DNA from: Desulfosporosinus youngiae DSM 17734 | Lineage (GTDB): Bacteria; Bacillota; Desulfitobacteriia; Desulfitobacteriales; Desulfitobacteriaceae | NCBI RefSeq assembly: GCF_000244895.1 | Contig: NZ_CM001441.1 | Span: forward strand, 4,182,198 to 4,246,197 | Direction of reading: 5' to 3' | Length of the DNA: 64,000 bases | Shown here: one piece after another, positions 15,760-30,311 of the stretch | Position numbering within the stretch: the stretch's first letter is position 1 | How the letters are laid out: each line of letters begins with the position of its first letter | Made by a program: the position numbers and the translations under genes | The notes under the pieces: model-generated | The model's input: only the letters and a program-made list of their open reading frames with translations | Databases searched by the model: none | What the model was told of the DNA's origin: nothing

Positions 15760-16470
15760 TCAGCAATTGTTAGAGCTTAAATTTCTCATAGTACAATTTC
15801 CTTTAAGATGGCAGAAATCGCAATGAGTTTTGCCGCTAAAATCAGGCAAATTGCGCCCTACCCCCATCACCATGGCAATCGATTTCTTGGGCAGCATTAG
15901 ATTGGAGTCCGTTAATCTGATACCAATCCGGTCCCCCTTGAGAAAACTAATAATGGATCTCACATCCTCAAGACCTTTCCAGTAGGAATGTCCGGGCCCC
16001 AAGGGGAACGTTGTGCTAAACTGTCCGGCCTTATAAGTCTCCGCGATTTCAGCTATGGCAGTATCAGCCACTTTGGCCATAAGCGCCGACCCCGCAGAGT
16101 CTAAAATAAAGGCTTCCAAGGTTTGACCTTGATCGGTATAATCTTTTACTCTCTGATCGATAGTACTGCCGATCGTCATGGCGAATAAAACGGCACCTTC
16201 GGCAGAACCTAACACCTTAGGCAATAAGGTTCCTCTTAACGTCAGGTCGTCCTCTAAATAAATTTCCTGCTCTCCGACACCAAGAACCTTGGCTTCCTGC
16301 CAGATAACCCTGGACCTTACCAACCCTTTAGCTTCCTCCAGGATCCGCAGATTCAAGCCGGCGATTCCCGGTCGCGGCGGTCGCTTACTGTAATCTGCAC
16401 CTTGGGCGGTAAATAGGTCCTGTATGGTTACCTCCGGCAGACTTACCTCATATAGTCTTGCTTCAGGCAT
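15760..16470 (-). CDS. MetH activation-domain-like protein of the corrinoid operon
   Basis: 236 residues resembling stand-alone versions of the SAM-binding reactivation domain of cobalamin-dependent methionine synthase (GSTIDQRVKDY, FILDSAGSALMAKVAD, PLGPGHSYWKGLEDVRSIISFL). The C terminus carries a Cys pair (CDFCHLKGNC) that could bind a metal or cluster. It is the last gene of the corrinoid methyltransferase operon, next to the RACo gene. It probably serves corrinoid reactivation or SAM-dependent repriming, which is inference from context. Confidence 0.75.
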   Translation of the reverse strand: MPEARLYEVSLPEVTIQDLFTAQGADYSKRPPRPGIAGLNLRILEEAKGLVRSRVIWQEAKVLGVGEQEIYLEDDLTLRGTLLPKVLGSAEGAVLFAMTIGSTIDQRVKDYTDQGQTLEAFILDSAGSALMAKVADTAIAEIAETYKAGQFSTTFPLGPGHSYWKGLEDVRSIISFLKGDRIGIRLTDSNLMLPKKSIAMVMGVGRNLPDFSGKTHCDFCHLKGNCTMRNLSSNNC

Positions 16471-16487: not shown

Positions 16488-18335
16488 TTAATCCAACTTG
16501 AAGTAGGTATTTTCAGCAAAAATAATATTGAATCGAGAGTAACTGCCTAGTTCGATAAATGAGACTGCGGCAGCTATATCGCCGGCTCTGGAAAATTCCC
16601 CTGCGGAAAGTAAAGCAATCTTTGCTCCTGTACCTGCCCCATTGCCGATCATTCTAATTTTAGTTTCCAGTTCCCTGGGGATTAAGCCTATTACACAGGC
16701 ACTGTGGGGATTCAGATAATTGCCGAAGGCCCCTGCCAGCAACACTTCTTTAATATCCTCAGGCTGAATACCGCTGCTCTCCATCAAGATCCTGACACCT
16801 GCGGCGATTGCTCCTTTGGCTAGCTGGAGCTCGCGAATATCATTCTGAGTGATCATAATCGGCCTGCCGTGGAGGGTTTCACCGGCATCAGCCAGCAAAA
16901 ATGCCCATGTTCCTTCATATTCAATCAGCCGATCCTTAAATCTTAAGGATTCAGGGTTGGTGAGCTGATCCGGCATAAGAAATTTACCGCGTTTGTTAAG
17001 CATACCCAGTTCAACCAGGCCCGCTACTCCATCGAGAAGAGCAGAACCACAAATTCCCGCGGGGCTCCCTCCGCCAATGACTGTAAACTCCAAGTTGTCT
17101 CCAAACTTAATATGATCAATAGCTCCAACGGCGCCCCTCATGCCATTGGTTATCTGTGCTCCTTCAAAGGCCGGGCCCGCAGCGGCTGAACAAGCAACCA
17201 TTTTCTTGCTTGAACCCAGCACAATTTCCCCATTGGTGCCAATATCCAAAATAAGGGTGACATCCTCACGCCGGTCGGGTTCCGTGGCCAATAAAACAGC
17301 CGTGGTATCTGCTCCCACAAATCCTGCAATATTGGGCAGTACAAAAACCTGACCGGCTCCGTTAATTTCCAGTCCTAACTCTGAGGGATCGACGACAAGT
17401 CCCTGATTTACTGCTGAAACATAGGGTGACACGCCAATACTTCTAGGATTGATTCCTAAGAAAAGGTGGTGCATGGTTGTATTGGCTGCGATAGAGATTC
17501 CATAGATATTGGTTCTGCTTGTTCCTGCCCTGCCGGCTGCTTCCCCGATCAGCTTATTAATGGCGTCTGTTACGGCTTTATGCAGTGAAGCCAGGCCATT
17601 CTCCTGTTTTCCTGCATAGGTGATACGGGAGATTACATCCCCTCCATATTGAGCCTGAGGATTAAGAGTGGACACCACCTCAAGTTCCTTGCCCGAGTTT
17701 AAGTCCATCAAGTATCCTACAATCGTCGTCGTCCCGATATCGAAAGCCATTCCTAACATAGTTTCGGTGGTATTGCCCGGTTCAAGCCCTAGCACCTCCG
17801 AGTCATATACGACTGTCGTCAGCTTATTATTGGCTTCCCGTAACATGTCCGGCAGCCGGCGCAAAGTAGAGAGAGGCGCCTTCAAGTTGTTCATATCTCC
17901 CTGAGCGGCCAGACTTTCCCGAAGACGCTGCCAGTCAGATTTATGCTCGCTTAGGGTCGGCTGACTCACTTCAGCAAAAAACTTTCTAAGATGAGGTTGA
18001 ACTGAGAAGGGCCTGTCTACCGAATTCATAAGAATATTATGCTTCAATTGTTTGGGATTGAGAATTTCGACGACCATATCCTCCTGAATCTCAGTCATAC
18101 AAGCCAAACGAATTCCATCTTCCAGTTCCTGCCTTGTCAGTCGGGACTGCTCAGCCGAAGTCGGCTTAGCCAATCCTTCTATTACCTTCACCCGGCACTT
18201 TCCGCATTTTCCCATCCCCCCACAAGGGAAATCAGACTCCAGTCCCGCCTGACTCATAGCTTCCATAATGGAAGTACCCGCTGCTGCTTGTTGACGAAGA
18301 GCTCCAGGTTGGAATATTATCCTAAAGTCTTTCAA
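16488..18335 (-). CDS. RACo-type corrinoid activator (2Fe-2S + ASKHA ATPase)
   Basis: About 615 residues. An N-terminal plant-type [2Fe-2S] ferredoxin domain (CGGMGKCGKCRVKV near 38-52, fourth Cys in RLACMTE) is followed by a linker and a C-terminal ASKHA ATPase domain (GMAFDIGTTTIVGYL, LILDIGTNGEIVLG, LLAGAFGNYLNP). This is the architecture of RACo and RamA-like proteins. They use ATP to drive reduction of inactive cob(II)alamin to cob(I)alamin on a partner corrinoid protein. The start is TTG 18335, preceded by AGGAGGT; an ORF extends 15 codons further. Confidence 0.92.
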   Translation of the reverse strand: MKDFRIIFQPGALRQQAAAGTSIMEAMSQAGLESDFPCGGMGKCGKCRVKVIEGLAKPTSAEQSRLTRQELEDGIRLACMTEIQEDMVVEILNPKQLKHNILMNSVDRPFSVQPHLRKFFAEVSQPTLSEHKSDWQRLRESLAAQGDMNNLKAPLSTLRRLPDMLREANNKLTTVVYDSEVLGLEPGNTTETMLGMAFDIGTTTIVGYLMDLNSGKELEVVSTLNPQAQYGGDVISRITYAGKQENGLASLHKAVTDAINKLIGEAAGRAGTSRTNIYGISIAANTTMHHLFLGINPRSIGVSPYVSAVNQGLVVDPSELGLEINGAGQVFVLPNIAGFVGADTTAVLLATEPDRREDVTLILDIGTNGEIVLGSSKKMVACSAAAGPAFEGAQITNGMRGAVGAIDHIKFGDNLEFTVIGGGSPAGICGSALLDGVAGLVELGMLNKRGKFLMPDQLTNPESLRFKDRLIEYEGTWAFLLADAGETLHGRPIMITQNDIRELQLAKGAIAAGVRILMESSGIQPEDIKEVLLAGAFGNYLNPHSACVIGLIPRELETKIRMIGNGAGTGAKIALLSAGEFSRAGDIAAAVSFIELGSYSRFNIIFAENTYFKLD

Positions 18336-18395
18336 GAAAATACCTCCTGTCCGCTTAAACGTAAAACTGCATCGAAACATGATGCAGTTGTTAAA

Positions 18396-19094
18396 TTACT
18401 CGCTATTTCCTTTTAGCTTGATATAATCCCCCCGAAAATAGGTTACACAAAAGCCGATGGGTTTATTGTCATCGTTAAAGATCTTTTGCTCAACCACCAG
18501 TAAGGCTAATTCATCATAAATATTCAGATGCTTCTTGATTTCCTCATCAGGCATTTGAGCAGAGATGGATAATTCTTTCTTTAAAGAAAAAGCAGCTATA
18601 CTGCCCGAAACCATTTCAGGAAAGGTGGCCTGTTCAATCTCTTTTTCTACAATGGGCATTCCTTTGGAATAGAGCAGATATTTAAGATCATAGGCAACCG
18701 GTTTACCCTCTGTATAAAACAATCTGCGAATAACAATCACATTCTTATTAATGGTCGTCTGAAGTTCGCCGGCAAGTTTCTCGTCAGGCATGATGATATT
18801 AACTTCTAACAGCCGGGATTGGTCTACTTTATTAATCGAGTTGTTCATTTCATTATAGTAAATGGTATACTTATTCAATTCAGGTTTCCGTACAAAACTG
18901 CCCTTGCCCGGAATTGAATAAATGTATCCGTCATTGGCCAGAATAGCGAGCCCTTTTCTAACGGTCATCCGGCTGGCGCCATACTCTTTGCTGAGGGCAT
19001 TCTCCGAAGGAACAGCATCACTTGGCTTTAACTGACCGCTATTAATTTTTTGTTTGATATCCTCAACAATCGCCAGATACATGGGATTAATCAT
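18396..19094 (-). CDS. GntR/HutC-family regulator (UTRA domain)
   Basis: 232 residues. A GntR winged helix lies at the N terminus (KINSGQLKPSDAVPSENALSKEYGASRMTVRKGL), and a UTRA ligand-binding domain fills the rest (EEEIKKHLN... VVEQKIFNDDNKPIGFCVTYFRGDYI). It lies inside the methyltransferase operon and overlaps the start of the corrinoid protein gene upstream. A GTATATAC-centred palindrome behind the operon promoter fits its family's operators, so autoregulation by a methyl-donor-related ligand is likely. Confidence 0.88.
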   Translation of the reverse strand: MINPMYLAIVEDIKQKINSGQLKPSDAVPSENALSKEYGASRMTVRKGLAILANDGYIYSIPGKGSFVRKPELNKYTIYYNEMNNSINKVDQSRLLEVNIIMPDEKLAGELQTTINKNVIVIRRLFYTEGKPVAYDLKYLLYSKGMPIVEKEIEQATFPEMVSGSIAAFSLKKELSISAQMPDEEIKKHLNIYDELALLVVEQKIFNDDNKPIGFCVTYFRGDYIKLKGNSE

Positions 19095-19764
19095 TATCTG
19101 ATTCTCCCATCTCCCCGGAAGCTTTCATCCAACGAAGGCAAATTTCGACTCCTTTTGACGCTTCAGCGGCAAAAGCGTCGGCGCCGATATAACGACAGCC
19201 ATTAGCATTGAGATAATTTGCTCCGGCAATAATTTTAACTTGGTCCCTTAATCCGGCTTTAGTAAACTCTTGAACCACCTGTTTCATTTGATCGATGGTA
19301 TTCGATAAAACTCCGCTCAACCCGATAATATCAGGTTTAAATTCCCTGGCTTTTTTCACAAATGTTTCTCCGGGCACGTCCACGCCAAGATCCATAACTT
19401 CAAAACCATTGGTCTCTAACAGAGCCCTGAAAATTTCCTTACCAATATCATGAATATCATCTTTGACAGTACCGATTAAGACTTTGCCGCTTTTCATATT
19501 GTGGCTGCTGGTATAAGAGATCATTCTGCTGAGTCCCAAGACTTCTCTAAAGATGATACCCGCCATGATTAAGTCAGCTATATAGTAATCTTTGCCTTCA
19601 TAACGCTTTCCTACCCGGTCCATACCCTCGATGATCATATTAATGACATCTAAAGGATTTATGCCTTGATCTAAAGCCTGATTAGTCAGTTCTATTACCT
19701 TTGTTTCTTCAAGTTGTTCCACACTGTCGATTAAACGTTCCTTATCTTCAAAAAAGCCCTTCAT
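19087..19764 (-). CDS. Corrinoid protein (methyltransferase cognate)
   Basis: About 225 residues. An N-terminal helical cap domain (B12-binding-2) precedes a Rossmann-like cobalamin domain with the base-off signature DIHDIG (in GTVKDDIHDIGKEI) and later GLSGVLSN and IIAGANYLN. It carries the methyl group on cobalamin between the substrate methyltransferase and the folate methyltransferase. ATG 19764 has GGAGG upstream and is preferred to the ATG four codons earlier. It is a second, diverged corrinoid protein beside the one at 22744-23382. Confidence 0.9.
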   Translation of the reverse strand: MKGFFEDKERLIDSVEQLEETKVIELTNQALDQGINPLDVINMIIEGMDRVGKRYEGKDYYIADLIMAGIIFREVLGLSRMISYTSSHNMKSGKVLIGTVKDDIHDIGKEIFRALLETNGFEVMDLGVDVPGETFVKKAREFKPDIIGLSGVLSNTIDQMKQVVQEFTKAGLRDQVKIIAGANYLNANGCRYIGADAFAAEASKGVEICLRWMKASGEMGESDND

Positions 19765-19850
19765 TACGCCCTCCATAAAACAGATTTACACAAAGGGGTA
19801 TTGGTATTTACAAAAATATCTTATTGCCCTCAAAAATGTTTGTCAACCTG

Positions 19851-20540
19851 TTATGGAAGGTCCTGGGTGATAATACCAAAATCCTGATTGCTTACCGTCT
19901 CTCCTTTTCGGATTAAACAGAAATCCTGGTCAGAGCTTCCTGCAAGAAGTTTCTTCAGCAGCCAAATATCGCCTTGGGCAAGGATCAGTTTCAAGTTGAG
20001 GCTTTCCGCTAGTGTTTTCGTTTCAGCCAAGCAGTCATCGAGACTATAGGCCTTCGTATCGATGAGCATCAGGTACTTATAGTGTTTGAACATCAGCTCA
20101 AAAACTCTTTTAGCCTGTTGCTCTCCATAACGCTTTACGGCATGCTCAATTTCTTTAGTCAAACTGTTAGTGCCTTCCAGCCAACCCTTGGTGAGATAAA
20201 AGGTGGCCTTTTGTTTCTTATATATCTGACCGGATTTACTCAGTACCATTGCTATACAGTCCTCGATCCTGGGAACGATCAGATCAGCGGTGGAAGCGTT
20301 CAAGCCAACTGTGCCATTGCCGCAGCAACCATAGGCTAAGAGAATTGTGTCAGCGTCTTTAATCTTGTCTATTTCCTCCTGGAGCTTAACCCTTAAACCA
20401 TCGGGGTCATTATGGTATTCAGAATCCACCCAAGTTATTGGGTACTGACAACCCAAATCATGCATGGCCTGATTAATTTCGTGACGAAGTGTTTTGCACG
20501 CAATGAGTGCAGTACGCCGATGTTTCCTATCCCCAGTCAT
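19851..20540 (-). CDS. DUF1638 protein of a corrinoid cluster
   Basis: 229 residues. It carries DUF1638 features (TALIACKTLRHEI, then TILLAYGCCGNGTVGL with adjacent cysteines, LIVPRIEDCIAM, KATFYLTKGWLEG). Members of this family are commonly found in methylotrophic corrinoid clusters. Their biochemical role is not established, though conserved Cys and Tyr residues suggest metal or cofactor binding. Here it lies between the MtrH-like methyltransferase and a corrinoid protein. Confidence 0.8.
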   Translation of the reverse strand: MTGDRKHRRTALIACKTLRHEINQAMHDLGCQYPITWVDSEYHNDPDGLRVKLQEEIDKIKDADTILLAYGCCGNGTVGLNASTADLIVPRIEDCIAMVLSKSGQIYKKQKATFYLTKGWLEGTNSLTKEIEHAVKRYGEQQAKRVFELMFKHYKYLMLIDTKAYSLDDCLAETKTLAESLNLKLILAQGDIWLLKKLLAGSSDQDFCLIRKGETVSNQDFGIITQDLP

Positions 20541-20558: not shown

Positions 20559-21365
20559 TTATTCCTTAATCGGTCCAATCTTATTCTTTCGGAAAGCATT
20601 CGAGAAGTTTCTGCAAAGGCGGTCCCGGCCCAGCAAAGCTTCCGTTGCCATGAGGGTTGCCATCATGTCCCGGTTAACCGGATCAATAATGGCGGAATCC
20701 ATTCCCGCATAAAGGGCGATGGTCAGAAAACCTTGATTGACAACTTTCCGCAGGGGCATGCCGAAGGAAATATTGCTTAACCCTGAGGTCACTTTAAGGG
20801 TGGGGTACAGTTCCTTAACCCGTTTTAAGGTCTCGGTAAAGTTCAGCAGCGATTTGTTATCGGCGGACAGGGCAAGCACCAGGGGGTCAAGATGAATTCG
20901 GTCAGGAGAGATCCCATGTTTTTCTGCCTTTTCCACAATATTGCGGGTAATCTCCACCCTCGTCTCCACATCCGAAGGAATTCCTCTGTTATCACATGTC
21001 AGGGCGATAACCTGCCACTCTGTCCCCTCAATCAGCGGAAAAATGATCTCACATTTATCCCCTTCTTCTGAAACAGAGTTGATTAACCCGGGGCGTCTGG
21101 CGTACTTCAGGACTTCCTTAATGACATTTGCATTTGGGCTGTCGATGCACAAAGGGGTATCCACCGTATCTTGAACCAGATTCATCAGCCAGATTAGGGT
21201 TTCGACTTCGTATTCCGGTGCGGTACTGGCACAGACATCCAGATAATGGGCTCCCGCCTCTGTTTGTTTAATGGCGAGGTTGCGGATAAACTCTTCATTT
21301 CTCTCAACAATCGCATTTTTTACGCTGGGGATCGTTCCGTTAATCTTTTCTCCTATAATAATCAT
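20559..21365 (-). CDS. Methyl-corrinoid:tetrahydrofolate methyltransferase (MtgA/MtrH-like)
   Basis: 268 residues with a dihydropteroate-synthase-like TIM barrel (MIIIGEKINGTIPSV, GAHYLDVCASTAPEYEVETL, PLCIDSPNANVI, HLDPLVLALS, SGLSNISFGMP). This is the pattern of methyltransferase II proteins such as MtgA, AcsE and MtrH, which move a methyl group from the corrinoid protein to tetrahydrofolate. It completes the three-component system with the UroD-like enzyme and the corrinoid proteins. Confidence 0.9.
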   Translation of the reverse strand: MIIIGEKINGTIPSVKNAIVERNEEFIRNLAIKQTEAGAHYLDVCASTAPEYEVETLIWLMNLVQDTVDTPLCIDSPNANVIKEVLKYARRPGLINSVSEEGDKCEIIFPLIEGTEWQVIALTCDNRGIPSDVETRVEITRNIVEKAEKHGISPDRIHLDPLVLALSADNKSLLNFTETLKRVKELYPTLKVTSGLSNISFGMPLRKVVNQGFLTIALYAGMDSAIIDPVNRDMMATLMATEALLGRDRLCRNFSNAFRKNKIGPIKE

Positions 21366-21439
21366 CGTCGAATCTCCTTCTCGTTTGTAAAAGGGGAGAG
21401 AGCGTCTTGCTCCCTCCCTTTATTTATTGCTGCGTTGCC

Positions 21440-21580
21440 TTAGGCACAGAGAAACATAATGAAGGAAAACATCATATCCTCATAACTCTGCATTTTCGGA
21501 GCCATGACCTGAGCCTCTTGCTCGTCAATTTCGGGATGCTCGGCAAGATATTCTTCCCATGTTTTATAGTAATTTGTGTT
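21440..21580 (-). CDS. Small conserved-looking protein inside the methyltransferase operon
   Basis: 46 residues (MNTNYYKTWEEYLAEHPE..., ending SFIMFLCA). AAGGAGGG lies eight bases before the ATG at 21580, as good as that of any neighbour, so it is very likely translated. It sits alone between the UroD-like methyltransferase and the MtgA-like gene, in operon orientation. It is acidic in the middle with a hydrophobic, Cys-containing end. I do not recognise it. It could be a subunit or chaperone of the methyltransferase complex, which is inference. Confidence 0.65.
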   Translation of the reverse strand, partial: NTNYYKTWEEYLAEHPEIDEQEAQVMAPKMQSYEDMMFSFIMFLCA

Positions 21581-21596
21581 CATCAAGAGTCCCTCC

Positions 21597-22742
21597 TTAA
21601 TAGCTGGCGTTATTAGCAACATAATCCAGGACAGCTTTGGTATTCTCTACATTAACACTATCTAAAGTGATAATAACTTTATCAAAACCAAAGCAATAGT
21701 TGCCGCCTGGCGCCATGATATCAATCAGTTCTTTGGCCTTGTCAACACACTCTTGCTTTGTTCCTGTTTTTAAAAGGGTAAGAGGGTATAAACCACCGAT
21801 AATGTGCTTTTTGCCCAATTTCTCCTTAATAAGCTTAGGATCTCCATACTCAAACTGCATGATGGTTCCTGCAGGAAGTTCTTCCAAATAATCGAGATAA
21901 CGCATCCAGTCCTGTTCGACGAACAGATTAGCTCTCATGCCCTTTTCAGCCAGTCCTTCAACTAATTTTTTAAAGCTTGGCCAGTATAACCTTTCAAAAT
22001 CTTTCGTACGAAGGTAGGGAGCCATGTGCAAGGGAATGAAGGTAGCATTATATTTATTCGGGAAAGGCTGGGTACCCATTTTGATCATCAGAGGGGTTGC
22101 CGCATTGACTGCGGCTTCTACTTTATCGGGAATTCTTCTTACATCTAAGGAAATGTTCTTAAAGCCTCTTAACTGATCCGTCAGGATGTCGAAGGGTGCC
22201 TCGCAGAAGCCGGCAAAAAAGGTGGATGTGCAATAATTATATTTATTGACTAGATTGCCATAAATCCTAAACAGATTATTATTTTCATCAGTATAGGCTT
22301 TGAAGGCTTTAGCCATAACCAGAGATCTTGTTGCAGGATCGGAATTAAGTTCTGAATACAAGTTGGGTAAGACCTTCTCAACGATACAGTTATAAGGTGA
22401 GGCAATAAAATCATCATAATCTTCGACCTTAAGTCCTTCCACCTCCGGATGCTGTAAAAAGCCATTGGAACCCATCACAAAGTTTCTGGACCCTAATACT
22501 TTATAAAACGACGGCATTCTAAAGGCCGAAACCGGCAATAGGTCAGAATAGAAGTCATCACATACTTTTTCAAAACAGGCTTCCAGGTCAGTCGTATCCC
22601 ATTGAACTTCTTTTAAATCCTTGCCGGCATATTGAATGGCAAATTCATGAGCAAATAAACCAACAACCGGTACACGCTTAGGAATCTTTCCATCCATGAT
22701 ATCCGTAACTAATTGTGTTCTTTCTGCCATCATATCAGTCAT
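21597..22742 (-). CDS. UroD-family corrinoid methyltransferase (substrate-specific MT I)
   Basis: 381 residues of the uroporphyrinogen-decarboxylase/MtaA superfamily (KRVPVVGLFAHEFAIQYAGK, GFCEAPFDILTDQLRGFKNI, VEQDWMRYLDYLEELPAGT, KHIIGGLYPLTLLKTGT). The H-x-C zinc motif of methylthiol:CoM-type enzymes is not visible; the position reads LFVEQDW. This fits the subgroup found beside corrinoid proteins in O-demethylation or N-demethylation clusters. It probably demethylates an unknown methoxylated or methylated donor onto the corrinoid protein encoded directly upstream. Confidence 0.82.
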   Translation of the reverse strand: MTDMMAERTQLVTDIMDGKIPKRVPVVGLFAHEFAIQYAGKDLKEVQWDTTDLEACFEKVCDDFYSDLLPVSAFRMPSFYKVLGSRNFVMGSNGFLQHPEVEGLKVEDYDDFIASPYNCIVEKVLPNLYSELNSDPATRSLVMAKAFKAYTDENNNLFRIYGNLVNKYNYCTSTFFAGFCEAPFDILTDQLRGFKNISLDVRRIPDKVEAAVNAATPLMIKMGTQPFPNKYNATFIPLHMAPYLRTKDFERLYWPSFKKLVEGLAEKGMRANLFVEQDWMRYLDYLEELPAGTIMQFEYGDPKLIKEKLGKKHIIGGLYPLTLLKTGTKQECVDKAKELIDIMAPGGNYCFGFDKVIITLDSVNVENTKAVLDYVANNASY

Positions 22743-22743
22743 G

Positions 22744-23382
22744 TTAGCTCACCCACTTCTGACAAATTTTTACTCCCTCGGCGGCATTCGTGGTAAACGT
22801 GTCAGCACCGATCTGTTTACAGGCCTCTTCGGTAACTGGGTTGCCGCCGATGATCACTTTTACCTGATCCCGCATCCCGTCCTCTTCTAAGGCTTTAACA
22901 ATTGCTTTCATTGAATCAATTGCCAGGGTGAGTACTCCGCTTAAACCTAAAATTTCCGGTTTTACCTCTTTAACCTTTTCAGCAAAAGCAGCAGGAGAAA
23001 CATCGATGCCCAGATCATATACTTCAAAACCAGCGGCTTCGACCATGCTGGCAAAAATATTTTTGCCGATATCGTGCATATCGCCCTGAACTGTACCCAC
23101 AACAATTTTGCCGATCTTACTGCTGTTTTCCCCGCCGATAACAGGTTTTAAAATATCAATGGCCCGATTCAGGAGTTCCCCAGCGAAAATAAGGTCGCCT
23201 ACATAGTACTCTTTCTTTTCAAAGAAATCTCCGACTATGCTCATTCCTTGCTGACATGCTCCCACTACCAGATTGGCATCAGCGCTGCTGGGCTTGGAAG
23301 CAACGAACTCTTCCAGCAGATTTACCACCTGACCCTCATCTAAATCGCCAATGGCTTGGGTCAATACATTTAAATCTAGCAT
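22744..23382 (-). CDS. Corrinoid protein, first gene of the methyltransferase operon
   Basis: 212 residues: helical cap (residues 1-85), then a cobalamin-binding domain with DMHDIG (in GTVQGDMHDIGKNI), GLSGVLTLAIDSM and IIGGNPVTEEACKQIGAD. Its stop and the start of the UroD-like gene are one base apart, so the two are probably translated together and act as a pair. It is clearly related to, but diverged from, the corrinoid protein at 19087-19764. Confidence 0.92.
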   Translation of the reverse strand: MLDLNVLTQAIGDLDEGQVVNLLEEFVASKPSSADANLVVGACQQGMSIVGDFFEKKEYYVGDLIFAGELLNRAIDILKPVIGGENSSKIGKIVVGTVQGDMHDIGKNIFASMVEAAGFEVYDLGIDVSPAAFAEKVKEVKPEILGLSGVLTLAIDSMKAIVKALEEDGMRDQVKVIIGGNPVTEEACKQIGADTFTTNAAEGVKICQKWVS

Positions 23383-23418
23383 ACCCTTTCACTCCCCTAA
23401 CTATTAATTTACTTACAT

Positions 23419-23438
23419 ATACCTGTATATACAAGTAT
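23419..23438. promoter_or_regulatory. GntR-type operator in the leader of the corrinoid operon
   Basis: ATACCTGTATATACAAGTAT is a 20-base palindrome with one mismatched pair, centred on GTATATAC as in TreR/GntR-UTRA operators. It lies downstream of the -10 box and upstream of the first corrinoid gene, so a bound repressor would block elongation or clearance. The GntR gene of this operon is the natural candidate ligand. Confidence 0.65.
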
Positions 23439-23459
23439 AAACAGGATCTTCATGGCTTT

Positions 23460-23487
23460 AGTTTACCATTTTACATATAAAAGTCAA
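23460..23487 (-). promoter_or_regulatory. Sigma-A-like promoter of the corrinoid operon
   Basis: TTGACT (-35) and TAAACT (-10) are separated by 16 bases on the minus strand, about 80 bases before the ATG at 23382. The GntR-type operator lies just downstream. Confidence 0.55.
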
Positions 23488-23642
23488 TAGGCAATATTCT
23501 AAAAATTTATAATATCGAAATCTTCCGCTGAGGGAAATTATTGGAGCCGCTACGGGCCTCCATACGTGGAACAAGCTCTCTTGCACCCATGTTCAGAGGA
23601 AGTTTCTTAACCTGTATCCTATTCCAGCGTTTTGATCAGCAA
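23488..23642. other. Intergenic stretch, nothing recognised
   Basis: Between the corrinoid promoter and the P-type ATPase terminator no ORF, repeat or convincing RNA structure was recognised. The 23690-23770 piece between that terminator and the ATPase stop contains CCCCACCCCGGCC-like GC-rich sequence without an assignable role. Confidence 0.3.
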
Positions 23643-23668
23643 TAAAAAAAGAGCCGATTCTTTCGGCT
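23643..23668 (-). terminator. Intrinsic terminator after the P-type ATPase
   Basis: GAGCCGA / TCGGCTC stem with a short loop, and seven T following on the minus strand, about 105 bases after the ATPase stop. Confidence 0.75.
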
Positions 23669-23772
23669 CCGGATATCTTTTTCTTGGGTTTCCCCACCCC
23701 GGCCTGAGGAGGTACCAATTCGGATCAAGTCCTTTAAATACTACGTCATTTCTTATTTGATATGATCCCAGA

Positions 23773-25979: not shown

Positions 25980-26822
25980 CTATGGTACTAGCTTGGGAAT
26001 GGTTTGCAACAGATCATCTTTAGTTTTAGGCAGGGGAGCAGAGGAAGCCAGCCAGCCCTTTACCACTAATTCACTGTGCATTTCGATGAGCCAAGGCAGC
26101 GCTAAATCAGCTCGTTTTACAATCTCCGGACGTATAAACAGCTCGCCGGGTTCTCCATCCGCAATGACCTCTCCTTTATACATTATGGCAATCCGGTCTG
26201 CCCAGGAATAAGCCAGATCCACATCATGAGTTGACAGGATAATCGTTATCCCCTTCTTACTCAGCTTTTCAAGAAGCTGCATAAACTCTTGAGAATGACG
26301 AGGGTCCATCCCTGCTGTGGGTTCATCAAAAATAATTATTTCCGGTTCCATTGCCAGAACGCCGGCGATAGAAACTCGTTTCTTCTGTCCATAACTTAAT
26401 AAGTGAGTCGGTTTATCCTCCAAATCCATTGTCTCTGTTGCTGCCAAGGATTGGTTCACTCTGGAAACCACTGTTTCTTCTAACAGCCCCAGATTAATAG
26501 GCCCAAAGGATACATCCTGATAAACACTGGCGGAGAAGAGCTGACTGTCCGGATCTTGAAAGACAATTCCGACTTTCTTCCGCAATTCTATTAAATCTTT
26601 GTTTTTGTAAGAAATCTTTTGCCCGCGATACCTGACGGAACCTGAGCAGGGCTGGTAGATTCCGTTAAAATGCATAAATAACGTTGATTTGCCGGCACCG
26701 TTTGATCCCAAAATAGCTACTTTTTCTCCTCGTTTAACACGCAGATTTATTTTGCGCAAGGCATTAGTCCCATCAGGATAATGATATTCCAAGTCAAGGG
26801 CTTCTAGTATAATTTCCTGCAA
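25980..26822 (-). CDS. cbiO: Energy-coupling-factor ATPase, cobalt type (CbiO-like)
   Basis: About 280 residues: ABC ATPase with Walker A GSNGAGKSTL, Q-loop GIVFQDPDSQLFS, signature LSYGQKKRVSIAG and Walker B IIIFDEPTAGMD. QDPDSQLF is typical of ECF/CbiO ATPases. A GGAGG eight bases before TTG 26822 marks the probable start. It follows cbiQ directly. No S-component (cbiM/cbiN) is encoded here; the upstream leader was disrupted by IS66. Confidence 0.87.
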   Translation of the reverse strand: MQEIILEALDLEYHYPDGTNALRKINLRVKRGEKVAILGSNGAGKSTLFMHFNGIYQPCSGSVRYRGQKISYKNKDLIELRKKVGIVFQDPDSQLFSASVYQDVSFGPINLGLLEETVVSRVNQSLAATETMDLEDKPTHLLSYGQKKRVSIAGVLAMEPEIIIFDEPTAGMDPRHSQEFMQLLEKLSKKGITIILSTHDVDLAYSWADRIAIMYKGEVIADGEPGELFIRPEIVKRADLALPWLIEMHSELVVKGWLASSAPLPKTKDDLLQTIPKLVP

Positions 26823-26827
26823 ATTGA

Positions 26828-27598
26828 TCACCTCCCAAGTACATTCAATAGGATCAGAGCCAGTTCAAACATCACAATAACCATGTAATTTTTTAAATTG
26901 ACCGGATACTTTTTGGTCAATACCTTAATTTCCCCTGTATAACAGCGGGCAGCCATGGCATTGTAAAGTTCTTGAGATTTTACAAAGACTTTGCCTAAAA
27001 GCGCTGTAAAAAGCCGGCTCATGGAGCGAAAGGAACTTTTCATTGAGACATAGCCTGATCTGGAAGTCTGAGCACGGTGAATTGTGACAGCCGTTTCCAT
27101 AAAGACAAAGATAAACCGGTAAATAAGCACCATCAACTCTGTGATGATACTTGGAACCTTTAGCCTGTGAAGCAGTGAAATTATTTCAGTCATGGGGGTA
27201 GTAAGGGCCATAAAATAGAGACAAGACACAGCCCCCAAGGATCTCAGGAATAAATTAACAGCTGTAATAAAATCTGAGTAGTATACCCCGATTGTCAGAC
27301 CATTAATTGTTTGAGCCAGCCAAAATCCTGCAGGGTCACGGGAAATTGAAAAAGCGACGGTCAGAACGCTGATCAGCAGAAATGAAAAGGGAATGAACAT
27401 AAGCTTGACGAAAACCCGGACCGGGATACCTGCTTTAAAGATAATGCCCCCTGCCATAAGTAAGAGAATGATAAAAGGAGTCGTAACCGTCGGAGAAGTC
27501 AGACATACGACCATAGTAATAACTGCAAAAAGACACTTTTCGGCTGGATGCACTGTCTTTAGATTATTACTGTAGGCATAACAATCAATACTTATCAT
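26828..27598 (-). CDS. cbiQ: ECF transporter T component (CbiQ-like)
   Basis: 256 residues with five to six hydrophobic segments and the T-component coupling motifs (RAQTSRSGY about residue 178, and AMAARCYTG near 220, the two Ala-Arg-Gly-like boxes). It couples CbiO to a substrate-binding S component. Its leader once lay directly behind a cobalamin riboswitch, consistent with cobalt uptake. That riboswitch is now separated from it by a complete IS66 element. Confidence 0.85.
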   Translation of the reverse strand: MISIDCYAYSNNLKTVHPAEKCLFAVITMVVCLTSPTVTTPFIILLLMAGGIIFKAGIPVRVFVKLMFIPFSFLLISVLTVAFSISRDPAGFWLAQTINGLTIGVYYSDFITAVNLFLRSLGAVSCLYFMALTTPMTEIISLLHRLKVPSIITELMVLIYRFIFVFMETAVTIHRAQTSRSGYVSMKSSFRSMSRLFTALLGKVFVKSQELYNAMAARCYTGEIKVLTKKYPVNLKNYMVIVMFELALILLNVLGR

Positions 27599-27907: not shown

Positions 27908-28243
27908 TTGAAATCCAAAGCTGAAACCCTGCAGCTCTGGGAACAGCGAATAAAGGAAAGAGTCCAAAATGGCATGACGATCGGAGAATGGTGCGAGAAG
28001 AATGGAGTGAGCAAGTACCGGTACAATTATTGGAATAAGCGGGTACGCGAAAAACTAAAAGCAGGTGAAGAACCGACCTTCGCCGAGGTTACCCCCATCC
28101 TTTCACCTGTCGATACAGCAAGTCAGAATTCGGTTTTATCTTCCGACTTTCAGATCTCTTTCAAAAGCATCCATGTAACCGTTCCTAGTAATTTCAATCC
28201 AGCCGCATTGGCGAGACTAATGAAGGTCCTGCAGGAATTATGA
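27908..28243 (+). CDS. tnpA: IS66 TnpA (OrfA) accessory protein
   Basis: 111 residues of the IS66 Orf1 type, with a helix-turn-helix segment (TIGEWCEKNGVSKYRYNYW). TTG start with GGGAGG eight bases upstream, inside a sequestering hairpin. Its end overlaps the start of tnpB (TTATGATG). Required with TnpB for transposition in studied IS66 members. Confidence 0.85.
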   Translation: MKSKAETLQLWEQRIKERVQNGMTIGEWCEKNGVSKYRYNYWNKRVREKLKAGEEPTFAEVTPILSPVDTASQNSVLSSDFQISFKSIHVTVPSNFNPAALARLMKVLQEL

Positions 28244-28611
28244 TGCAGCATATCGCCGATGAGGCGGACCATATTTACTTGGCCCTGGGAGCCACCGATT
28301 TTCGCAAACAGCAAAGTGGACTAGCCTCCTTGGTGGCCTTGAAATTTAAACTGGATCCCCATGCGGGAACAAACGTCTTCCTGTTCTGCAATAAACGTCA
28401 CAATGCCTTGCGAGCTTTACGCTGGGACGGCAACGGCTTTATCCTGGTCACCAAAGCGCTCTCCGACGAAATGAAATTCCAATGGCCGAAGAATCAGGGC
28501 GAAGTAAGGGACATTACCAAGCGGCAACTGGCATGGCTCTTGGAAGGATTGCAGGTTGACCAGAAAAAAGCGCACCAAGACATGGTTGACACGACTGGCA
28601 TTATTTACTGA
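28240..28611 (+). CDS. tnpB: IS66 TnpB (Orf2)
   Basis: 123 residues matching the IS66 Orf2 family throughout (IYLALGATDFRKQQSGLASLV, NVFLFCNKRHNALRALRWDGNGF, FQWPKN, RQLAWLLEGLQVD). The molecular role is unknown, though it is needed for transposition in characterised members. Confidence 0.9.
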   Translation: MMQHIADEADHIYLALGATDFRKQQSGLASLVALKFKLDPHAGTNVFLFCNKRHNALRALRWDGNGFILVTKALSDEMKFQWPKNQGEVRDITKRQLAWLLEGLQVDQKKAHQDMVDTTGIIY

Positions 28612-28688
28612 AAATGCTCTAAAATGCTGAGAAAATGGCACTTTTTTGGTATAATGGAAGTAAGAAATTTGATTAGGAAGAAAGCGCC

Positions 28689-30311
28689 ATGCACGACGAA
28701 AAAGATCTGCGTATAGCACAACTTAAAATGGAAAACCAAAGACTGCATGAGAAAATTCACAGGTTAGAACACAATGTCGAAGCTCTCACGCAGGCCGTTT
28801 TGCATGCAGCAAAGCAGCGTTTCGGGGCATCCAGTGAGAAAACGCCGTCAACAGTAGGACAAGCATCCCTGTTCGGCGAGGAAGACGCAGATAACATTCC
28901 TTTACCTTATGCGCCCGTCCTTCAAATCAAGGAACACAAACGACCTGTACGAAAAAAAGGCGATCGTGAGAAACTCACGTTAGGGCTTTCCAGAGAAACC
29001 GTGGAATGTGTTCTGAATCCTGATGAATCGGCCTGTGGGATCTGTGGCAGTGAACTAAACGTCATTGGGAAGAAAAAAGTTCGTTCTGAGATGGAATATA
29101 TCCCAGCAAAGCTGGTTATGAAAGACTATGTCCAAATGGTTTATAAATGTGTGGAATGCGGAAAGAACGACGAGAATCCCTACGATGCGATATACAGCGC
29201 GCCGGTGCCGGCACCTGTACTAACACACTCCATAGCCTCCCCGTCCAGCGCAGCTTGGATCCTGTACCAAAAATATGTGCTTTCGGTCCCTTTATACCGG
29301 CAGGAACGGGATTTTAAAAGGATGGGTGCAGCACTGAAAAGAGATACCATGGCCAACTGGGCCATACGATGCGCTGAAGATTGGCTGAGACCGCTGTATG
29401 ACCGAATGCACGAACAATTGCTGAAATGCAGCATCATCATGAGTGACGAGACTTCTTGGCAGGTCAACCGCGAGCCAGGGAAAAAGGCTTCAAGCAAATC
29501 GTATATCTGGATCCACCGGAGTGGTAGTTGCGAGGGGCCGCCCATTATTCTCTACGAATACACACGAACCCGCTCGGGAGACCATGCCAGGAAATTTCTC
29601 GCAGGATTTAGCGGTTTTCATGTCAGCGACGCTTACGCGGGCTATGAAAAGGTGGAAGGCATCACACGGTGCCTCTGCTATAGTCACTTGCGGCGATATT
29701 ACCTGGAAGCCATCCCCTTAGATTCCGGAAGAAAAGAGATCCCTGGTTCCGGCGGGGCGATCGGACGGGCTTACTGTGATAAACTTTTCCGGTTGGAACG
29801 CAAGTGGAAGAAACTACAACCGGCGGAGAGGAAAAAGAACCGGCTTATTTATAGCGTCCCTGTGTTGGAGGCCTTTTTCGCGTGGGCGGAAACGACAAGG
29901 ACCCAGCAGGAGAATCTGAGAAAAGCCTTGAATTATACCTTGAACCACAAGAAATACTTCACCAACTTCTTGCTGGACGGAAGAATTCCCCTGTCCAATA
30001 ATTTATCCGAAGTCGCCGTGAAACCCGTAGCTCTCACGAGGAAGAACTCTCTGTTTTCGGATTCAGTGGCAGGGGCCAAAGCTTCCGCTATCATATTTAG
30101 CATCGTAGGGACAGCAAATGCCAACAACCTGGATCCCTACAAATATTTGGAGTATATATTCCGCGCGTTGCCGAATCTGGAGTTTACATCGGATGATACG
30201 ATATTGGATGACTATCTGCCATGGTCCGAGAAGGTGCAGCTTGAATGTCGGATGCAAAATACCAAAACGGAAGTTAAAGAGAAGGATGACCAAAGAGATG
30301 AAACTGCCTAA
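28689..30311 (+). CDS. tnpC: IS66 transposase TnpC
   Basis: 540 residues. N-terminal coiled coil (QLKMENQRLHEKIHRLEHNVEAL), a Cys zinc-binding segment (CGICGSELN ... CVECGK, about 115-160), and a DDE catalytic domain (IIMSDETSWQVNR; HVSDAYAGYE; C-terminal E in NNLSEVAVKP). Intact, which supports an active element. Confidence 0.92.
   Translation: MHDEKDLRIAQLKMENQRLHEKIHRLEHNVEALTQAVLHAAKQRFGASSEKTPSTVGQASLFGEEDADNIPLPYAPVLQIKEHKRPVRKKGDREKLTLGLSRETVECVLNPDESACGICGSELNVIGKKKVRSEMEYIPAKLVMKDYVQMVYKCVECGKNDENPYDAIYSAPVPAPVLTHSIASPSSAAWILYQKYVLSVPLYRQERDFKRMGAALKRDTMANWAIRCAEDWLRPLYDRMHEQLLKCSIIMSDETSWQVNREPGKKASSKSYIWIHRSGSCEGPPIILYEYTRTRSGDHARKFLAGFSGFHVSDAYAGYEKVEGITRCLCYSHLRRYYLEAIPLDSGRKEIPGSGGAIGRAYCDKLFRLERKWKKLQPAERKKNRLIYSVPVLEAFFAWAETTRTQQENLRKALNYTLNHKKYFTNFLLDGRIPLSNNLSEVAVKPVALTRKNSLFSDSVAGAKASAIIFSIVGTANANNLDPYKYLEYIFRALPNLEFTSDDTILDDYLPWSEKVQLECRMQNTKTEVKEKDDQRDETA

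Follow-up and report, generated by a model that had tools for sequence, protein, structure and literature searches.

The short ORF between the UroD-like and MtgA-like methyltransferase genes of the Desulfosporosinus youngiae DSM 17734 window, the 64,000-nucleotide stretch of DNA analyzed here, very probably encodes a genuine protein of 47 amino acids that constitutes a detached C-terminal domain, or small subunit, belonging to the UroD-type methyltransferase I whose gene lies directly upstream. The best reading of the comparative data is that such a subunit would be near-obligate for one clade of UroD-superfamily corrinoid methyltransferases I. The coding status of the ORF, its near-obligate pairing with UroD-type genes and its fusion to them in other genomes are direct outcomes of the computations described below. 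The features of the operon are as follows:

21440..21583, minus strand: 47-aa protein MNTNYYKTWEEYLAEHPEIDEQEAQVMAPKMQSYEDMMFSFIMFLCA, putative small subunit of the UroD-type methyltransferase (47 codons plus TAA)
21591..21598, minus strand: Shine-Dalgarno sequence AAGGAGGG, 7 nt upstream of the small-ORF ATG; its bases overlap the UroD-like stop codon (21597-21599)
21597..22742, minus strand: UroD-superfamily methyltransferase I, 381 aa (PF01208, E 2.5e-11, 43.6 bits versus a cut-off of 23.9)
22744..23382, minus strand: corrinoid protein (CorA), 212 aa (PF02310 and PF02607)
21394..21418, minus strand: predicted 10-bp stem-loop in the gap that separates the small gene from the MtgA-type gene
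20559..21365, minus strand: methyltetrahydrofolate:corrinoid methyltransferase (MtgA/AcsE type), methyltransferase II (NF005719, 374.8 bits, cut-off 259)
19851..20540, minus strand: DUF1638 protein (PF07796, E 2.5e-46)
19087..19776, minus strand: second corrinoid protein (CorB; PF02310 and PF02607)
18396..19094, minus strand: GntR/UTRA regulator
16488..18380, minus strand: RACo/RamA-like reductive activator of corrinoid proteins (PF14574, PF17651, PF17650)
15760..16470, minus strand: protein weakly like the methionine-synthase activation domain (PF02965, 23.2 bits, below the cut-off of 25)

The UroD-like gene of the window is accordingly found in one operon with genes for a corrinoid protein, a methyltransferase II and a reductive activator. 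This operon includes one UroD-type methyltransferase, yet two corrinoid proteins (19087-19776 and 22744-23382). Of 200 shuffled versions, 197 folded less well than the 80-nt stretch containing the stem-loop (z -2.87), and a stem-loop also follows the small gene in all four close relatives compared (L002, L003, L004 and L006), in two of which the stem sequence differs, so that two sequence versions of the structure exist. A consensus terminator scan of positions 21300-23700 returned two terminator-like sites, a number close to that expected by chance, neither of which corresponds to the stem-loop. The location of the hairpin downstream of the small gene fits co-expression of this gene with the UroD gene.

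The ATG of the small ORF occupies positions 21581-21583 on the minus strand. The original prediction had placed the ORF at 21440-21580 with a length of 46 aa, which left out the ATG and is corrected here to 21440-21583 and 47 aa, while its call of a strong ribosome-binding sequence ahead of an ATG was borne out by AAGGAGGG, as were the orientation and the neighboring genes, a UroD-like gene (PF01208) upstream and an MtgA-type gene downstream. An alternative in-frame ATG at 21622 would yield 60 aa; the start at 21583 is the one kept in relatives. Comparison with the five nearest relatives (L002-L006) gave dN/dS ratios of 0.01-0.08, which are rough because dS amounted to 1.3-2.9, and the pooled substitutions at the three codon positions numbered 25/10/82, a pattern that indicates strong purifying selection on the small ORF. 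Values of dN/dS near 1 between distant subfamilies were set aside, as gapped pairs had been compared ungapped in these cases.

The frequency of short ORFs behind UroD-like genes was compared with that behind other genes at the 78 named loci, counting ORFs that start no more than 100 nt after the gene. An ORF of 30-70 aa with a five-base ribosome-binding match was present after 58 of 68 unfused UroD-like genes, whereas fused UroD-like genes had one in 3 of 40 cases and other genes in 6 of 485. Under a looser requirement for the ribosome-binding site the counts were 62/68, 3/40 and 22/485, and under an ATG-only rule they were 58/68, 9/40 and 73/485, respectively, while stricter rules for start and ribosome site left 41/68 unfused and 1/40 fused UroD genes as well as 0/483 controls. 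The small ORF thus exceeds chance because position and start site discriminate it from the controls; length alone proves nothing. Searches of family databases returned little: the 47-mer matched no Pfam-A family at E <= 0.01, and its sole NCBIfam match at E <= 1 was MysB (NF008544), with 16.5 bits against a cut-off of 157. When 53 members of the small-protein group, the window's included, were searched against Pfam-A, stray matches to UPF0154 (two, best E 0.0016) and DUF5647 (one, E 0.0099) were obtained.

The members recovered from other genomes form a small family characterized by an (S/T)KYYxTWEEY segment and a C-terminal helix of the form YExxxFxFxMxL, and they are located directly after a UroD-type methyltransferase or fused to it. 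Even before any profile was built, the 47-mer alone found fused forms with E-values of 2.3e-9 and 2.2e-8. At the loci retrieved by using the small protein as query, 75 of 77 profile matches (59 of 61 distinct sequences) adjoin or are fused to a UroD-type methyltransferase, the two exceptions being L148 and L149, which were judged false. These loci provide a fair test of the pairing because many others were fetched with the UroD query. Over all loci 174 of 177 small-profile matches are adjacent to a UroD gene or part of one, with L063, which is cut by the contig end, and the false L148 and L149 accounting for the remaining three. Conversely, among 200 UroD-like ORFs from 151 loci, a redundant set, the small ORF was separate and downstream in 120, fused in 55 and unrecognized in 16, with six further ORFs at contig edges and three partial. 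Reduction to 148 distinct UroD cores resulted in 83 with the domain separate downstream, 47 with it fused at the C-terminus and 18 in which it was unrecognized. Conservation in related operons, the absence of which the original prediction had named as its refutation, thus proved to be strong and partner-specific, and together with the fused forms and the purifying selection it largely supports the proposed overlooked accessory subunit. Fusion of two adjacent genes is a classical sign of physical partnership, and the fused forms and the purifying selection point to a subunit that acts at the protein level and that, we infer, takes part in methyl transfer.

The distribution of fused and separate forms was followed on a quick, midpoint-rooted tree of the 148 distinct UroD cores without the small domain, from which incomplete and identical cores were left out. 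The three labels (separate, fused, unrecognized) required eight changes in all on this tree, where shuffled labels needed 55.5 on average. The fused rows formed two groups lying apart, of 43 and 4 rows, with separate rows branching earlier than both, and the group of four was located in a clade with 19 separate rows. The simplest reading of this quick, midpoint-rooted tree is that the fusion would have arisen at least twice, with a single fusion followed by later splits as the alternative that it also allows. In the 50 distinct fused ORFs the linker measured 23-30 residues, with 24-26 in 43 of them.

Searches with the single 47-aa sequence matched 41 of 100 genomes (its own and relatives) at E <= 1, many by chance, and 26 of the 100, its own included, at E 2.2e-6 or better. 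A 17-row small-protein profile detected the family in 28 of 398 genomes of the phylum, representing 19 of 266 genera, at E <= 0.001. Its matches in L148 and L149 were rejected by eye, since they lie in frames of 562-576 aa away from UroD genes. When one genome of each of 84,980 species was scanned with the UroD alignment, 161 matches were confirmed, the best 80 of which correspond to 78 loci and include Desulfosporosinus, Desulfotruncus, Thermincola, Formimonas, Geosporobacter, Anaerovirgula, Acetobacterium and Eubacterium as well as other Clostridia-like Bacillota. The genomic context of small-protein matches was checked at the fetched loci. Searches with the UroD protein returned three pattern stretches and no relatives among viral contigs, and no matches in a plasmid collection. 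Two genomes of the same order (L042 and L044) carry two or three UroD/small pairs within 12 kb, and the aromatic YY of their small proteins is replaced by LL.

Structure prediction with AlphaFold2 was performed for a fused relative from Geosporobacter ferrireducens (L082 5992-7356), the UroD part of which is 55% identical to the window's UroD-like protein, and for the window 47-mer alone. The fused model reached a mean pLDDT of 95.2 and a pTM of 0.92, and in blocks of ten residues its last domain scored 90-95, while the linker dropped to 81. The 47-mer modeled alone reached a pLDDT of 79.5 and a pTM of 0.43, with helices at residues 9-15 and 21-46; the underlying alignments differ between the two predictions, with 76 rows for the fused relative versus 53 for the 47-mer. 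These predictions agree with a small domain that folds on its partner, and a confident fold of this domain is predicted in the fused setting only, where a high pLDDT alone is no proof of a fixed interface. Within the C-terminal helix of the small protein the hydrophobic residues F39, F/Y41 and L45 are well kept. Structural comparison placed the fused relative with UroD structures (Z 23.4, rmsd 3.7 over 312 residues) and identified it as a UroD/MetE-type TIM barrel, although the matches are filled by the barrel, the aligned ranges stop by residue 390 and the last domain is barely covered. The fold of the 47-mer alone gave two matches in the PDB, the best with an E-value of 7.8 and neither usable. 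When 130 UroD/small pairs (Neff 66) were subjected to mean-field coupling analysis, no interpretable contacts emerged, and the top pairs within UroD resembled clade structure. The only match of the small profile among PDB sequences, a molybdopterin synthase sulfur carrier subunit (E 0.07), was taken as chance.

The UroD-like partner enzyme retains a zinc-type H-E-C set, with H239 (numbered as in the window's UroD-like protein) present in 148, E276 in 144 and C332 in 141 of the 148 UroD cores. The equivalent residues bind zinc in MetE and MtaA. Among the O-demethylase methyltransferases I, OdmB and VdmB are shorter proteins of about 36 kDa. Searched against PDB sequences, the UroD-like protein of the window matched only CdmB at E <= 0.01 (E 3.1e-18). 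CdmB, from Acetobacterium dehalogenans (PDB 9rui, 9rul, 9ruo), is described as likewise a UroD-superfamily methyltransferase I, operating together with a corrinoid protein and methyltransferase II (PMC13222342). It is the closest UroD-type methyltransferase I for which a structure has been solved; it reportedly has no zinc, and its assay contained the corrinoid protein and an activator but no additional subunit (PMC13222342). The absence of zinc given there for CdmB (PMC13222342) differs from the kept H-E-C set in the window's clade; since this set is retained as in MetE and MtaA, the window enzyme is, judging from its residues, probably zinc-dependent, unlike CdmB. The CdmB protein bears no sign of the small domain, as its match to a fused relative covers only residues 104-374 of the relative's 451 and ends at CdmB 421/429. 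OdmB, VdmB, MtvB and MtoB are described as further members of the UroD superfamily, whose systems likewise include a corrinoid protein and methyltransferase II (PMC13222342, PMC8630106). The MtaA-type methyltransferase of Methanosarcina mazei (PDB 4AY7, 4AY8) shares the fold of the fused relative (Z 20.6-20.7, 308 residues) in an alignment that stops short of the small domain, at model residue 384-385, and the NCBIfam models of CoM methyltransferases scored far below their cut-offs against the window's UroD-like protein (18.9/244 and 16.4/600 bits).

Eighteen of the distinct UroD cores had been left without a recognized family domain. Two of these carry a diverged C-terminal tail (L096 and L109), one runs off the contig (L140) and one is too near the contig end for a decision (L043). 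At L049, L115 and L123 a scripted search found no short downstream ORF with a ribosome-binding match, while the remaining 11 are followed by another short ORF. Of the 15 domain-less cores without tail or contig cut inside the gene, 13 belong to one clade and L065 and L066 are positioned on a long branch; the 11 short ORFs with a ribosome-binding match encode 36-46 aa. Over the loci listed below such ORFs measure 36-50 aa and, by eye, comprise at least four mutually dissimilar sequence groups:

L035 7663-7785, L118 after 8582, L099 after 4858, and L182: short ORFs with FLP..., then a GF-hydrophobic end
L084, L067, L070, L114 and L040: KTPEEVEKAVK-like short ORFs
L065 and L066: a further group of short ORFs
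L124: a single short ORF

One short ORF from each of three of these groups was compared with Pfam, resulting in no matches. The genome of A. dehalogenans contains 28 URO-D Pfam matches, and since the model misses two family genes on the L110 contig at least 30 UroD-like genes are present. The small profile matches three places in this genome, and a fourth UroD-like gene includes a weak fused copy (L110 10604-11998, E 0.017), which places the domain on at least four UroD-like genes versus the at least 30. The presence of the domain on a minority of them implies that it is unneeded for this chemistry in general. The small domain is therefore a feature of some branches of UroD-type methyltransferases and not of all. 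Since genes of neighboring UroD clades often have other short ORFs at the corresponding position, microprotein partners may be a wider rule among these enzymes. A bolder extension, which we regard as possible but rather doubtful, would be that a whole branch of UroD-type corrinoid methyltransferases is built of two parts, a TIM barrel and a cap subunit that is specific to the lineage and about 36-62 aa long, with dissimilar cap families at the same gene position and the cap setting the methyl donor or corrinoid partner. If true, substrate range could change by a microprotein swap.

The methyl-transfer reaction and the roles of MtgA-type and RACo-like proteins are established for these families. 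The UroD-like protein would transfer a methyl group from a substrate to the corrinoid protein at its Co(I), from which the MtgA-type enzyme would hand it to tetrahydrofolate, and the RACo-like protein would re-reduce the cobalt. The overlap between the ribosome-binding site of the small ORF and the UroD stop codon makes reinitiation or translational coupling the probable route by which the 47-mer is produced. The 47-mer would consist of the aromatic (S/T)KYYxTWEEY segment followed by a long amphipathic helix ending in F-x-F-x-M-x-L, and the separate protein would bind the UroD TIM barrel, fold on it and stay bound throughout; in related bacteria a linker some 24 residues long connects the same domain covalently to the barrel. 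In proteins of this fold, the C-terminus of the barrel itself is expected at the bottom. Because a linker of this length could carry the domain from there up to the mouth, a role as lid or seat for the substrate or the corrinoid protein is preferred, with a stabilizing role close behind. Bound in this manner, the domain would help to build or close the mouth of the barrel, the place at which the methyl donor meets the corrinoid protein, with no catalysis of its own.

The stabilizing role would make the small protein a factor for stability or dimerization that covers a hydrophobic barrel surface far from the active site and binds neither substrate nor corrinoid protein. We consider this a serious though less probable alternative, with which the well-kept hydrophobic residues of the C-terminal helix and the lack of a confident fold in the 47-mer alone are consistent, whereas the conserved aromatic KYYxTW and the near-fixed linker (23-30 residues, 24-26 in 43 of 50) suggest a defined seat, perhaps away from the barrel C-terminus, without being decisive. 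Somewhat less likely still is a docking element for the cognate corrinoid protein that sets which one is served: genes for corrinoid proteins share the window operon, and a homologue was present in the fetched region of 42 of the 78 named loci, several of them cut by contig ends, but for CdmB the reaction with the cognate corrinoid protein is reported to proceed in the absence of any third subunit (PMC13222342).

Two further explanations deny the peptide a function. The tight coupling to the upstream stop codon and the hairpin directly after the small ORF would suit a regulatory leader or translation-coupling ORF with a functionless peptide, which is rejected as very improbable in view of the very low dN/dS, the conservation of amino acids across Clostridia and the fusions to the enzyme. 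The same three lines of evidence make a chance ORF the least credible reading of all; some ATG ORF of 30-70 aa was indeed found near 73 of 485 controls when the ribosome-site rule was omitted, but the five-base ribosome-binding match reduced this number to 6 of 485.

In the titles and abstract beginnings of the open-licence literature no description of such a small UroD partner protein was found; papers that shared the relevant terms dealt with pyrrolysine systems and with tetrapyrrole biosynthesis. The window would thus hold a UroD-type corrinoid methyltransferase with an apparently unrecognized microprotein subunit. Anaerobic methylotrophs and acetogens possess many UroD-type methyltransferases, and the Fig. 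5 legend of the 2026 CdmB study marks some UroD-type clades as acting on unknown substrates (PMC13222342). If this clade requires a microprotein subunit, its UroD proteins may seem inactive when produced without that subunit, and the search for their substrates would fail. For assays and crystallography, the 47 distinct fusions found in nature are single-chain constructs ready for use. The small gene is moreover a clean example of the kind of gene that length cut-offs may conceal, for which evidence from fusion, selection and synteny could be joined.

MFS-type transporters are encoded near the UroD genes of L049, L082 and L091, which fits an imported small molecule. The window genome consists of one contig of 5,660,978 bases. 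Near the corrinoid operon, positions 25980-27598 on the minus strand encode an ABC ATPase and a membrane protein that by eye resemble a CbiO/CbiQ-like cobalt uptake pair, and positions 27908-30311 on the plus strand comprise three ORFs (111, 123 and 540 aa) that by eye resemble an IS66-type insertion sequence.
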